The position numbers and the translations under genes are program-made. From a virus, in IMG/VR virus record IMGVR_UViG_3300027800_000043, positions 1 to 28,579 of that record: DNA of 28,579 bases. One strand, given 5' to 3'. The stretch's first letter is position 1. Each line of letters begins with the position of its first letter. Under the pieces are notes generated by a model. It was not told the DNA's origin. It saw only the letters and a list, made by a program, of their open reading frames with translations, and did no database searches. Shown here one piece after another: positions 8,070 to 27,011 of the stretch.

Positions 8070-8585
8070 ATGGGAACTACATCAATTAGCAAAGCAGACA
8101 TCCGGGCTATTTACGCTTTAGGCTCTGTTCTGGGAATGGTAAGGACAGGGGATCACGACGACGATCTGCATCTGCTTGTATCCGGGACGACCGGAAAGAG
8201 TTCCGTTTCTGAACTTAGTTCTACAGAAGCGCACGATGTGCTTCAGAGGCTGCAGCAATTGATGAAAGGGAACCATATTCCGCCTGCTCCCTCCCGGCGC
8301 AAGACACCAGAGACGGTTCCAGGACGCATCTCATCCGTGCAGAAAGGGCTTGCATGGAGGTTGATTTACAGGCTTCAGGAACTGGATCCGCGTCCTGGTG
8401 TCGCCGTTGGTGATAGATTGTGCGGCGCGATCCGGAAGATCCTTGGAGTTGACGCATCCGTCGAAACCCCTTTCGTATGGGTTACAAACGAACAGGCCAC
8501 TAAGCTGATCGAGCAGCTTAAGAGATATGTACGATCCGCCGAGAAGGCGAAAGGAGAGCACTATGAAAGACGAACTGCTAAGTGA
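8070..8585 (+). CDS. GemA/Mu gp16-like protein (DUF1018 type)
   Basis: The 171-aa product has the GemA layout. An N-terminal helical part (SKADIRAIYALGSVLGM) and a TGTTGKSSVSELSSTEAHDVLQRLQQLM-like segment resemble the Mu gp16 repeat of small helices (part quoted as SELSSTEAHDVLQRL). A C-terminal part around 90-165 has WVTNEQATKLIEQLK. GemA of Mu affects host gene expression and gyrase-related supercoiling; the role here is inferred. A GTG at 8058 overlaps the previous stop, but GAGGTGG favours ATG 8070. It lies immediately before the Mor-like activator and overlaps it by 23 bases, as in Mu. Confidence 0.72.
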   Translation: MGTTSISKADIRAIYALGSVLGMVRTGDHDDDLHLLVSGTTGKSSVSELSSTEAHDVLQRLQQLMKGNHIPPAPSRRKTPETVPGRISSVQKGLAWRLIYRLQELDPRPGVAVGDRLCGAIRKILGVDASVETPFVWVTNEQATKLIEQLKRYVRSAEKAKGEHYERRTAK

Positions 8586-8883
8586 ACTGATGATAGAGGA
8601 CCTGAACGGAGATCAGGCGCAGCTTGCAGCCATCATCGGGATTGACGCCTACAGATCGGTTGTGGCCAACTACGCCGGGACTGTTATCTATATCCCGACA
8701 CAGTCCACTCTTTTGGCATGCTGCAGGGATCGGATGATCAAGGACGATTACGAACGGGGGTTGAGTTATCGTGACATCGCGGTAAAATGGGGATTGACCA
8801 CCGTGTGGATCCGGAAGATAATTCATGGTGAAGAGTCGGGTACATGGCCCGGCCAGCTTTCTATGGATCAGATCGAAAACTAA
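8563..8883 (+). CDS. Mor/C-like middle/late transcription activator
   Basis: The 106-aa product matches the Mu Mor/C family: an N-terminal dimerisation region (LAAIIGIDAYRSVVANYAGTV), the conserved strand IYIPTQSTL, a CRDRMIKDDYERGLSYRDIA linker, and a C-terminal HTH (AVKWGLTTVWIRKIIHG). In Mu, Mor turns on the middle promoter and C the late promoters by binding dyads just upstream of -35. Only one such gene is seen here. AAAGGAGA supports ATG 8563 rather than the upstream in-frame ATG 8527. It is last in the early operon; a strong terminator follows 42 bases later. Confidence 0.87.
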   Translation: MKDELLSELMIEDLNGDQAQLAAIIGIDAYRSVVANYAGTVIYIPTQSTLLACCRDRMIKDDYERGLSYRDIAVKWGLTTVWIRKIIHGEESGTWPGQLSMDQIEN

Positions 8884-8924
8884 TTTTCTAAAGCCCTTTG
8901 TTTTACGCGATACGCAGATTATTG

Positions 8925-8959
8925 ATAAGGTTTGAGCTAATAGCTCAAGCCTTATTTTT
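8925..8959 (+). terminator. Strong terminator of the early operon
   Basis: A 14-base stem, ATAAGGTTTGAGCT (8925-8938) with AGCTCAAGCCTTAT (8942-8955), has only one G-T pair and a 3-base loop. A T run follows. It separates the early genes ending with the Mor-like activator from the packaging genes. Passage beyond it needs a new promoter or antitermination. Confidence 0.85.
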
Positions 8960-9692: not shown

Positions 9693-10238
9693 ATGGCACG
9701 GCGTAAACACAGTAAGATTGATAAATTGCCCGATACACTTCGGCAGGCTGTTGAACAGATGATGCAGTCGGATTTCACCTATTCGGAGATCTGCGACTAT
9801 ATCAAGCAGTCCGGGCATGATATCTCTATCGGTTCTGTGTTCCGCTATGCGCAGACCCTCAATGCTTCCGTACAGCAGATCCGCATGGCGCAGGAGAACT
9901 TCCGGGTCATCATGGACGAAATAAACAAGTATCCCATGCTTGACACTTCCGAAGGAATCATCCGGCTGCTGTCTCATCACCTCTTGGAGACGATCCAGAA
10001 CACTTCACAGGACCAATGGAATGAAGTGGATCCGGCAACACTAATTAAGCAAGGATCCGCGCTGATCCGCGCTGCTTCTTATAAGACCAATACGGACCTT
10101 AAGAACAAAGATATTCTGGACGCTGGTTACGAACAGGTCAAAACGATGGTTTTCGAAGCAATGTCGAAAGAACGTCCGGATCTCTACCGCGATGTCTCCG
10201 GATTCTTGGCAGCCAAGAGTCAGGAGGTCAAACAGTGA
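9693..10238 (+). CDS. Small terminase-like protein (Mu gp27 / DUF3486 type)
   Basis: The N-terminus, RRKHSKIDKLPDTLRQAVEQM then FTYSEICDYIKQSG and ISIGSVFRYAQTL, is the typical opening of Mu gp27-like proteins: a helix-turn-helix that should recognise the packaging end. The remaining 110 residues are helical, as in small terminase oligomers. It should hand concatenated or transposed DNA to the large terminase at 10961. It starts after AGGAGGATC and overlaps the NusG-like start (GTGA). Confidence 0.8.
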   Translation: MARRKHSKIDKLPDTLRQAVEQMMQSDFTYSEICDYIKQSGHDISIGSVFRYAQTLNASVQQIRMAQENFRVIMDEINKYPMLDTSEGIIRLLSHHLLETIQNTSQDQWNEVDPATLIKQGSALIRAASYKTNTDLKNKDILDAGYEQVKTMVFEAMSKERPDLYRDVSGFLAAKSQEVKQ

Positions 10239-10735
10239 TCTACGTATTACATACGATGTCCGGGAGCGAAAACGAGGTAGTTCGAGATCTCCAGCGATCC
10301 AGATATAACGCGATTGTCCTCCGGGAGAACACGACAATCCGGAGAGGCGGTTCCTGGAAGCAGGAGACTCGATATTTGCTCCCCGGATATGTATTCCTTA
10401 TTCTCCCGAGCAGTATCCTCACCTGGCAGTATTCGGAGATCAAGAGAATCCACGGAATTATTCGATTTCTCGGTACCGGATATCCGGTACCGCTCCCGGA
10501 GGAAGAGGAAGCATGGGTAAGGTGGTTATCCAACGATGGATGCGACCGGCCTATCGAGGAAAGTAAAGTCGAAGTCGGAGAACAGATACGCGTCCTGGGC
10601 GGACCTCTCTATGGCCGGGAAGGACAGATCGTTAAGATCGACTCCCGGAGGCATCGAGTCAAAGTTAAAATCACGACGCTGGGAATCATGCATGAGATAA
10701 GTCTTTCTGCTGAATTGGTCACATCACTTACCTGA
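10235..10735 (+). CDS. NusG paralog, LoaP/RfaH-like antiterminator
   Basis: This 166-aa protein has a NusG N-terminal (NGN) domain: YVLHTMSGSENEVVRDLQR, a beta region with RRGGSWKQETRYLLPGYVFL, and IIRFLGTG near residue 82. A KOW domain follows (VEVGEQIRVLGGPLYGREGQIVKI, about 112-135). The family binds RNA polymerase at the clamp; NusG paralogs such as RfaH and LoaP work on chosen operons. GTG 10235 is set by AGGAGGT at 10221-10227 and overlaps the small terminase stop. It lies directly before a 225-base structured leader and the long late operon with internal terminators, so late-gene antitermination is the natural reading (inference). Confidence 0.85.
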   Translation: MIYVLHTMSGSENEVVRDLQRSRYNAIVLRENTTIRRGGSWKQETRYLLPGYVFLILPSSILTWQYSEIKRIHGIIRFLGTGYPVPLPEEEEAWVRWLSNDGCDRPIEESKVEVGEQIRVLGGPLYGREGQIVKIDSRRHRVKVKITTLGIMHEISLSAELVTSLT

Positions 10736-10771
10736 TTAAATCTGTTGATTCGCTCCAGAATTCATCCGGAA

Positions 10772-10818
10772 AGCTTCGAAAAACGATCCACTGCACATCA
10801 AATGCAGATGGCGAAGCT
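10772..10818 (+). ncRNA. Two-part stem-loop in the late leader
   Basis: An outer stem AGCTTCG (10772-10778) pairs with CGAAGCT (10812-10818). An inner stem CCACTGCA (10788-10795) pairs with TGCAG-A-TGG (10803-10811) around the loop CATCAAA. The 3' strands are contiguous and a 9-base bulge lies on the 5' side. It stands just behind the NusG paralog gene. LoaP-type proteins act with RNA hairpins in leader RNAs, so this is a candidate loading element. The fold was drawn by eye. Confidence 0.5.
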
Positions 10819-10835
10819 ATGCCAAACGACTAGTA

Positions 10836-10870
10836 CCGTTTAACTCCCGTTTAACTCCGTTAAATTGACA
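10836..10870 (+). promoter_or_regulatory. Tandem CCGTTTAACTC repeats before the terminase gene
   Basis: CCGTTTAACTC occurs at 10836-10846 and 10847-10857, followed by the variant CCGTTAAAT, with an 11-base period. A TTGACA follows at 10865-10870. Helically phased repeats next to a -35-like box suggest an activator site, perhaps for the Mor-like protein. No good -10 box is seen 16-18 bases after TTGACA, so the promoter itself is doubtful. The core CCGTTTAA is shared with the left-end repeats near 329-336. Confidence 0.4.
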
Positions 10871-10960
10871 TGTGCCATTGCTAGGAGAACAAACGGGGCT
10901 ACTTGCTTAGATTTGACGAATTTGGGCGTTGTAAGGGCATCAAGCGAAAGGGGAAGCAAA

Positions 10961-12691
10961 ATGAAAAAGCAAAGCATCAAATTGCTTTCTGAGAACCTGA
11001 CTGCTGCCGAACAAAAACTGGCCGAAGAGCAAAGTCACGACAAGGAATACATTCATAAGCTGTTTGAGGAATACGTAAAGCCGGATTTGGATCCTGATAG
11101 ACAATCTCTTTGGAGAGACTATCAGGGCGGCGCGGAACTTACAGGACCCTCCGGACTCAGAAAGAGGCTGGCGGCGATCGATCTTGGATATTTCGCACGA
11201 GCGTATCTGTCACATTACTTCTCCCGGCCTTCTCCTCCATTTCACGTCGAGCTCGATGGAATCTGGCAGGACAACGTCCTTCACAAATTGAATCCGGTTG
11301 TCGAAGCAAAGAGGATCAGCCTGATGGATGGATCACGCTGCGTAACAGCTGCTCCCAGAGGCCACGCCAAATCCACTAACTTCACATTTAAAGACTCTTT
11401 ACACGCTGTTTTATACGAATATAAACACTACATCATTCTTCTCTCTGACAGCCGTGATCAGGCAGTAGGCTTCTTGTCATCGATTGCAGAAGAGCTTGAT
11501 ACGAACGAGACGATCCATGAAGACTTTGGCCGGCTCGCCGGAGGCGTCTGGCGCGAAGATGTGCTTATCACTAAGACCAAGATCAAGGTCGAGGCTATGG
11601 GTGCCGGACAGAAGATCCGAGGACGTAAGCACAAGAATTGGCGTCCGGATCTGATCGTACTTGATGATATTGAGAATGACGAAATGGTTCGAACACAGGA
11701 GCAGCGTAAGAAGCTCTATAACTGGTTCACAAAGGCGGTCTCCAAAGCCGGCGACTCGTATACGGATATCGTCTATATCGGAACCTTACTTCATTACGAC
11801 GCGCTCCTGGCTAAGGTCCTTCAGAACCCTGGTTATAAAGGCAAAATGTACAAGGCTGTTATCCAGTTCTCTGAGTCTTCTCTTTGGGATGACTGGGAAG
11901 TACTGTATACGGACTTAGATAATGCCGATCATGAAGCGACGGCTGAGAAGTTCTTTCTTGAACACAAAGAAACCATGCTCGAAGGAACACAGGTTCTCTG
12001 GCCGGAGAAGAACAGCTATTACAGTCTGATGAAGTCGAGGATCGAAGACGGTGTGGCCGCTTTCAATTCCGAACTCCAGAACGAGCCTATCGATCCGGAA
12101 ACATGCCTCTTTAACGAGGATTGGATCGATTACTACAATCCGTTCGAAGTGGATTTCAAGGACGCAGACTTCACCTTCTGGGGTGCTGTTGATCCGTCCC
12201 TGGGCAAATCAAAGAAGTCGGACTTTAGCGCGATCATAACGATCGCTAAGAGTACGAAGACCGGGTACATGTACGTCGCCGATGCCGACATCGAAAGAAG
12301 GCATCCGGATCAGATCATTGACGACTGCCTAAAGAAGGCAGAATGGATCTTAAAGACATACGGCAAGAAATACAAGGCCTTTGGCTGTGAAACTGTTCAG
12401 TTCCAGTGGTTCTTAAAAGAGCAGCTGGGCAAAGCGTCGGCGGCTCGCGGAATATACCTTCCCCTTGTCGAAATCAACTCGACTGGGAACAAGTTGCTTC
12501 GGATCCAGACGCTGCAGCCTGATATTAAGAACAAATATATCAAGTTTGAGCGAGGCCAAAAGAAGCTTATTCAGCAGTTGAAAGAGTTCCCTATGGGAGA
12601 TCATGATGACGGACCTGATGGTCTCGAAATGGCAAAGAGTCTTGCGACCACCCGAAGAGGTGGCCGCTTCGTAATGGTAAAGAACATGTGA
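10961..12691 (+). CDS. Terminase large subunit
   Basis: This 576-aa motor packages DNA. Walker A is the phage-type RGHAKST (133-139, Lys137). Walker B is LIVLDDIEND (231-240, Asp235/236). A coupling-type IGTLLHYDALL follows. The RNase H-like nuclease begins at GAVDPSLGKSKKSDFSAI with Asp411, and later conserved segments are FGCETVQFQWFL and HDDGPDGLEMA near the end. Mu-like phages cut at host DNA beyond the phage ends (headful). ATG 10961 follows AAAGGGGA; the upstream in-frame extension to 10865 is TTG-initiated and has no site. It is the first gene behind the structured leader. Confidence 0.9.
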   Translation: MKKQSIKLLSENLTAAEQKLAEEQSHDKEYIHKLFEEYVKPDLDPDRQSLWRDYQGGAELTGPSGLRKRLAAIDLGYFARAYLSHYFSRPSPPFHVELDGIWQDNVLHKLNPVVEAKRISLMDGSRCVTAAPRGHAKSTNFTFKDSLHAVLYEYKHYIILLSDSRDQAVGFLSSIAEELDTNETIHEDFGRLAGGVWREDVLITKTKIKVEAMGAGQKIRGRKHKNWRPDLIVLDDIENDEMVRTQEQRKKLYNWFTKAVSKAGDSYTDIVYIGTLLHYDALLAKVLQNPGYKGKMYKAVIQFSESSLWDDWEVLYTDLDNADHEATAEKFFLEHKETMLEGTQVLWPEKNSYYSLMKSRIEDGVAAFNSELQNEPIDPETCLFNEDWIDYYNPFEVDFKDADFTFWGAVDPSLGKSKKSDFSAIITIAKSTKTGYMYVADADIERRHPDQIIDDCLKKAEWILKTYGKKYKAFGCETVQFQWFLKEQLGKASAARGIYLPLVEINSTGNKLLRIQTLQPDIKNKYIKFERGQKKLIQQLKEFPMGDHDDGPDGLEMAKSLATTRRGGRFVMVKNM

Positions 12692-15927: not shown

Positions 15928-15953
15928 CTCCATATAAGTAACACATTATTGTT

Positions 15954-15981
15954 AAGAGAGCCTACGGGCTCTTTTAATTTT
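15954..15981 (+). terminator. Intrinsic terminator inside the late operon
   Basis: AAGAGAGCC (15954-15962) pairs with GGCTCTTTT (15967-15975) around TACG with one G-T pair, followed by AATTTT. It lies between the toxin/immunity-like cassette and the scaffold gene, so late transcripts must pass it or restart. It is one of the elements the NusG paralog may override. Confidence 0.7.
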
Positions 15982-26955: not shown

Positions 26956-26977
26956 AAGACCTTTGGGTCTTTTTTTA
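26956..26977 (+). terminator. Terminator between fibre and lysis genes
   Basis: AAGACC (26956-26961) pairs with GGTCTT (26966-26971) around TTTG, and a T run follows to 26977. This classical element separates tail genes from holin and lysozyme, so lysis genes may need readthrough or their own promoter. Confidence 0.82.
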
Positions 26978-27011
26978 GTTCAAAAAACAATGAAAAACGG
27001 AGGAATTTACT

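Follow-up and report, generated by a model that had tools for sequence, protein, structure and literature searches.

Background

The closest described system is the LoaP of Bacillus velezensis, a NusG paralog whose gene lies just before its target operon, as known for dfn and mln (PMC12691694, refs 53-55). Until now, LoaP is known from antibiotic and polysaccharide operons of bacteria. The hairpins of dfn and mln are of the UNCG type, the dfn hairpin is needed in vivo and in vitro, and the dfn system requires only LoaP, the hairpin and NusA-dependent terminators, although a pause located between the hairpin and the terminator helps (PMC12691694). Two other systems offer partial parallels. RfaH, directed to its operons through ops, is also a NusG paralog with specific targets, and lambda Q, like Q21/Q82, is a phage-encoded processive antiterminator of late operons. 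For Q, the recruiting signal is DNA (qut) at a pause close to the promoter.

We analysed a stretch of 28,579 bases, hereafter the window, which is the IMG/VR virus record IMGVR_UViG_3300027800_000043. The computations make it very likely that it holds a phage-borne LoaP system together with a cognate RNA target before the late operon. Like the dfn/mln system, this one combines a NusG paralog gene just ahead of its operon with a leader UNCG hairpin (the dfn sequence itself was not compared), internal intrinsic terminators and a fold match to the structure 8f5g. It differs in that it rides a Mu-like phage of Bacillota bacteria, where it is placed between terS and terL and would serve virion genes rather than antibiotic or polysaccharide operons, in that it adds a phased DNA array, and in that the score of the window protein stays below the NCBIfam cut-off. 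It shares with lambda Q the role of a late antiterminator, which is inferred for the phage LoaP, but the protein families are unrelated and recruitment would be by an RNA hairpin instead of DNA. RfaH differs by reading non-template DNA, acting mainly against Rho and coupling translation. We saw no phage LoaP reported in the open-access literature searched, most subscription papers being outside the reach of that search.

Results

Gene plan of the window

The gene plan is Mu-like and runs from a repressor through a DDE transposase (PHROG 310, E 1e-94), a transposition ATPase (PHROG 296), a Mor/C-like activator, terS, the NusG paralog and a leader to terL, followed by portal, minor head, connectors, tape measure, tail, holin and endolysin genes (Table 1). 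The terS stop and the paralog start share 4 nt, and the non-coding leader between loaP and terL covers 225 nt (10736-10960). The terminator behind the Mor-like gene is inferred to close the middle transcript, with the late promoter probably just behind it.

A preliminary description of the locus, made without database searches, had reported the NGN+KOW protein, the 225-base non-coding leader and a 16-kb late operon behind it. All three held: the coordinates of the protein are right, the terL ATG directly follows the leader, and the order of virion and lysis genes fits. The terminators that it placed at 15954 and 26956 and its hairpin at about 17501, which is strong, also held. It missed the UNCG hairpin, the CCGTTTAA array and the strong terminator after the Mor-like gene.

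Table 1. Coordinates of the features of the window and the evidence for each.
Feature	Position	Strand	Evidence
Mor/C-like late transcriptional activator	8527..8883	+	PHROG 836 'late transcriptional activator', E 2.3e-14
Strong intrinsic terminator after the Mor-like gene (15-bp stem and U-tract)	8924..8956	+	Terminator scan; -26 kcal/mol stretch
terS, terminase small subunit	9693..10238	+	PHROG 426, E 1.5e-28
NGN+KOW NusG paralog, phage LoaP (very likely; predicted)	10235..10735	+	166 aa, GTG start; NCBIfam, AlphaFold2, Foldseek
H1, UNCG hairpin UCUG-UU-GA-UUCG-CUC-CAGA, candidate LoaP-binding RNA	10741..10759	+	Leader pattern and covarying stem
H2, two-part stem-loop of the preliminary description	10772..10818	+	Fold; inner helix covaries in relatives
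Conserved GGCGAAGC motif, 3' side of H2	10810..10817	+	GGNGWAGC counts in leaders
Helically phased array CCGTTTAAC / CCGTTTAAC / CCGTTAAAT, 10-11 bp spacing	10836..10865	+	CGTT[TC]AA enrichment
terL, terminase large subunit, first gene after the leader	10961..12691	+	PHROG 38, E 7e-108; ATG start
Internal late terminator (15954), about 5 kb past the start of terL	15944..15975	+	AGAGCC-UACG-GGCUCU-UUUAAUUUU
Intrinsic terminator before holin and endolysin genes	26956..26979	+	AAGACC-UUUG-GGUCUU-UUUUU

A NusG paralog of the LoaP type

Sequence and predicted fold very probably place the product of 10235-10735 among the NusG paralogs of LoaP type. Its top NCBIfam model is LoaP (NF033641, 107 bits, E 1e-30), which is under the curated cut-off of 125; orthologs in the same place exceed this cut-off in some prophages (Fervidicella 138 bits, Paenibacillus/Brevibacillus 162-168). 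Neither the housekeeping NusG model TIGR00922 (63.8 bits, cut-off 135.7) nor the RfaH model TIGR01955 (19.3 bits, cut-off 144.5) is met, and UpxY reaches 44 bits.

Structure prediction of the paralog, suggested in the preliminary description, was carried out for the protein with AlphaFold2 and gave a confident model (pLDDT 95) resembling 8f5g over its full length. This entry, titled 'NusG-RNA complex', is the top Foldseek match in the PDB (TM 0.80-0.83 over about 165 columns for its two fullest chains), the remaining NusG/RfaH entries reaching TM 0.50 or lower by query length; from its title, its date and ref 55 of PMC12691694 we take it to be the LoaP-RNA crystal structure. The C-terminal domain is predicted as beta strands (a beta barrel), not as the alpha-helical autoinhibited domain of RfaH type.

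The E40A, R41A and I143A mutants of B. velezensis LoaP fail to recognise the hairpin (PMC12691694). Of this RNA-binding ER pair, the arginine aligned with R41 does not vary among 17 phage proteins and is present in more than 90% of 34, and the glutamate is an isoleucine in the window protein and E in many relatives. The position of I143 is only approximate in the phage proteins, the B. velezensis sequence not being in the alignment.

Relatives and spread of the cassette

Since the NusG family is too little conserved for an alignment-wide search, relatives were collected by terL scans of viral contigs and named Bacillota genomes. They occur in Lachnospiraceae, Oscillospiraceae, [Clostridium] citroniae, Fervidicella, Anaerotruncus colihominis, Paenibacillus, Brevibacillus and Desulfotruncus. 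Counting that of the window, 69 distinct forms of a LoaP-like gene with its leader were collected, almost always placed between terS and terL. The spacing from loaP to terL in these LoaP-positive phages is 86-940 nt, mostly 220-440, whereas in LoaP-negative relatives the upstream gene typically overlaps terL by about 19 nt. Three prophages examined across 20 kb all have homologues of transposase A, the ATPase, terS, LoaP and terL, and two have a Mor homologue; in the Paenibacillus prophage with a type B hairpin (see below) the transposase match is only distant.

The presence of LoaP on the terL tree takes 7 changes, at least 4 of them forced by starred branches, which indicates that the cassette was gained or lost several times. 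It also looks modular, because two human faecal phages (L004, L006) carry the terS-LoaP-leader unit ahead of packaging genes that do not match the terL family of the window. One Lachnospiraceae genome (G009, contigs C22, C26 and C66) contains nine LoaP-family matches, several of them as tandem pairs about 0.8-1 kb apart.

H1, a covarying UNCG hairpin

H1 sits upstream of the stem-loop reported in the preliminary description, and its core was matched by pattern in 67 of the 69 leaders, window included. In the type A form (54 leaders) the stem lies close to the loaP stop and is broken by UU, after which comes GA-UNCG-UC; two further leaders, that of the window and that of L006, contain one more C (GA-UNCG-CUC). 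The type B pattern UGU-UNCG-GC is found in eleven leaders, mainly the short ones of Paenibacillus, Brevibacillus and Desulfotruncus phages. As for the two leaders missed by the pattern, L005 can be read by eye as CUGCGG-CU-GG-UACG-CC-CCGCAG, and in L102 no H1 is visible by pattern or by eye. The N of the tetraloop is U in 49 cases, G in 10, A in 7 and C in 1.

Hairpin and protein occur together: an H1-type sequence lies upstream of terL in 65 of 67 LoaP-positive relatives and in none of 74 LoaP-negative ones; these relatives are not independent. The uninterrupted stem averages 4.66 bp in 41 distinct type A hairpins, against 1.93 when the 3' arms are shuffled (largest of 2000, 2.85). Changes on both sides affect 7 of 10 pairs (32 sequences), and the covariation score of 0.538 was not reached in any of 500 shuffles (0.155) or by slid alignments (at most 0.17). 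Such covariation of the stem implies a role at the RNA level. The H1 of the window is weaker than most, with a stem of only 4 bp and the extra C in its loop, and is not the RNAfold optimum. Without binding data, we regard H1 as the likely element gripped by LoaP, rather than the two-part stem-loop.

H2, a second conserved element

H2 is the local minimum-energy fold of the window leader and consists of an outer helix (AGCUUCG/CGAAGCU), a 9-nt 5' bulge and inner arms CCACUGCA/UGCAGAUGG. As the folding energy of the leader is by itself unexceptional (z = -1.1, 25 of 200 shuffles folding equally well), the reality of the structure rests on comparison. GGNGWAGC is present in 50 of 69 phage leaders (3.9 expected) and in 13 of 22 chromosomal loaP leaders (0.5 expected), the clearest chromosomal H2-like cases being L300 (GGUCAUAGC...AUGGCGAAGCUAUGGCC) and L302 (GGACAUAGC...AUGGCGAAGCUAUGUCUUUUUUU). 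In 23 relatives of the Lachnospiraceae/Oscillospiraceae set, 4 of 7 pairs of the inner helix show changes on both sides; a contiguous-stem test of this helix gave just 5.1, shuffles reaching 4.3. A plain outer helix is seen in the window, L019, L195 and L302, though not generally. The idea of a single covarying outer helix across all type A phages was dropped, a wide alignment having given it no support.

H2 is a second conserved leader element, common to phage and chromosomal loaP leaders. It may make the polymerase pause, serve as a stem resembling a terminator or give a second signal for recruitment, none of which is more than a possibility. In the open-access literature searched, only H1 is described as part of a LoaP signal, not H2/GGCGAAGC. 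That the conserved GGCGAAGC(UAUG) loosely resembles ops is a mere idea. No Rfam family was met by the window at gathering threshold, and none occurred above chance near loaP leaders.

In the Lachnospiraceae/Oscillospiraceae leaders L088-L181 (e.g. L159, L166, L173) we observed that AAGGAACC, which precedes H2, is able to pair with GGUUCCUUUUUU behind it; through this pairing H2 would be the core of a large terminator.

A phased DNA array before terL

The motif CGTT[TC]AA occurs in 90 copies in the 58 long leaders, against 1.9 expected. In relatives, CCGTTTAAA units recur at 10/11/21-bp spacing about 115-165 bp before terL; such arrays are found upstream of terL in LoaP-positive phages only and were not seen beside chromosomal loaP hairpins. 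The short leaders (85-92 nt) stop directly after H2 and are too short for an array. At times an AT-rich stretch such as GTGGGATAATTTCAC follows. The array could be an activator operator, a promoter or something else; a sigma-70 promoter scan stayed at chance level, and no consistent -10/-35 was found.

Terminators in the late operon

With one criterion applied to both sets, 35 intrinsic terminators lie in the opening 5.6 kb of the late operon in 58 LoaP-positive loci versus 10 in 63 LoaP-negative ones (shuffled controls 2 and 1; Mann-Whitney p 1e-5). A terminator 4.3-5.6 kb behind the terL start, the interval that holds 15954 in the window, is present in 25 of 55 LoaP-positive versus 3 of 55 LoaP-negative loci (Fisher p 1.6e-6, an overstatement since the relatives are not independent). 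One criterion for a LoaP system, that loaP adjoins a target operon with intrinsic terminators, is thus met by those at 15954 and 26956. Another, that the hairpin is followed by a leader terminator like that of dfn, is not met in the window, where no canonical U-tract terminator was found in the leader; it is a dfn trait and is not known to define the family. Among the 58 long leaders, 21 contain a strict U-tract terminator (0.55 expected). The terminator at 15954 has a UACG tetraloop, also of UNCG type, and lacks the bulged architecture found in H1.

Comparison with chromosomal loaP

Among 25 Bacilli loaP loci over the cut-off, a hand count found stem-(U)-CG-N-UGU-UNCG-GCA-CG-stem within 1.5 kb, on either strand, in about half; an automated scan for this hairpin gave 7 sense-strand matches in the full set of 55 loci, with no match in shuffled sequence. 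The type B phage hairpin, GGC-A-CC-U-UGU-UNCG-GCA-GG-GCC, has the same architecture, whereas type A phages have the core UU-GA-UNCG-UC in place of the UGU-UNCG-GCA of chromosomal Bacilli. Related hairpins lie directly behind the gene at six clostridial loaP loci (L282, L290, L295, L300, L301, L302). Downstream of three loci with H1 and H2 leaders (L295, L300, L301), polysaccharide-like genes (sugar transferase, chain-length regulator) were recognised by eye.

In the protein tree, chromosomal LoaPs form one group (100/98) which the type B phage proteins join (98/93), and the type A phage proteins lie across the midpoint root from them. Host housekeeping NusGs stand apart on a very long branch (1.57). 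Rooting on this branch would place the chromosomal LoaPs inside the phage ones, which long branches and limited sampling leave as a possible lead only. A search of the viral contigs for chromosomal-type LoaP found none.

Discussion

Proposed mechanism

The computations show the type and fold of the protein, the conservation and covariation of the hairpin, the co-occurrence of protein and RNA, the architecture shared with chromosomal leaders and the enrichment of terminators. By analogy, with no activity or transcription data, it is likely that LoaP is used for processive antitermination of the late operon, a lambda Q-like role played by another protein family. A phage LoaP with the hairpin that it would grip just ahead of the late genes probably carries RNA polymerase past internal stop signals. 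In the course of events that we infer, the late transcript would pass terS and loaP and the nascent RNA would then present H1; LoaP would bind H1 and load onto the elongating host RNA polymerase, possibly aided by a pause at H2/GGCGAAGC. It would displace or antagonise NusA and ride the polymerase across the 16-kb head and tail operon, reading through the internal intrinsic terminator at 15954 and perhaps also that at 26956 to the lysis genes. The timing of these steps downstream of the Mor-like activator is equally inferred.

The preliminary description had inferred that this transposable phage uses a dedicated, LoaP-like NusG paralog plus a cis RNA for late transcription. This is supported by the LoaP-type protein, the co-occurrence of hairpin and protein, the compensatory changes and the terminator enrichment in LoaP-positive late operons. 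It had named a lack of compensatory changes among relatives as a refutation; these changes are abundant in H1 and present in the H2 inner helix. Two corrections are needed: its two-part stem-loop holds as a fold but is the second element, the likely LoaP target being H1, and antitermination is inferred, not shown.

Alternative explanations

LoaP could, with H1/H2, be a local attenuator that governs one leader terminator or pause, as a checkpoint between terS and terL, without travelling through the operon. The strict terminators in long leaders and the U-tracts that follow H2 in some relatives speak for it; against it, the window leader has no U-tract terminator and deep-operon terminators are commoner in LoaP-positive phages, an enrichment that a purely local checkpoint does not explain. 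We judge it unlikely.

The CCGTTTAA array could instead mark a late promoter where a Mor/C-like activator binds, terL transcription beginning downstream of H1/H2 and LoaP acting on the incoming terS transcript only, or elsewhere. The array is highly conserved, fixed at about 145 bp from terL and confined to LoaP-positive phages. However, there is no consistent -10/-35, the covariation of the H1 stem requires an RNA role, and short leaders leave no space for an array; this reading is improbable too.

That the protein is a captured housekeeping-like NusG or pausing factor unrelated to the leader stem-loops has in its favour the common NGN+KOW fold and the 64 bits of the housekeeping model, but is already disfavoured and very unlikely given the separate branch of host NusGs and the hairpin-protein co-occurrence.

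Implications

Beyond the reading of LoaP as a late antiterminator, a bolder one is possible: LoaP would be native to phages, chromosomal LoaP deriving from, or sharing a phage ancestor with, Mu-like late antiterminators, and its RNA signal would be a conserved one in two parts, H1 and H2/GGCGAAGC. If antitermination holds true, Bacillota transposable phages would have in this NusG-family, RNA-recruited late antiterminator their counterpart of lambda Q. H2 is newly exposed as a second conserved leader element. With LoaP linked to many phages and prophages with covarying RNA targets, the LoaP-RNA code becomes readable from natural variation, and the question is raised whether bacterial antibiotic antiterminators are of phage origin.
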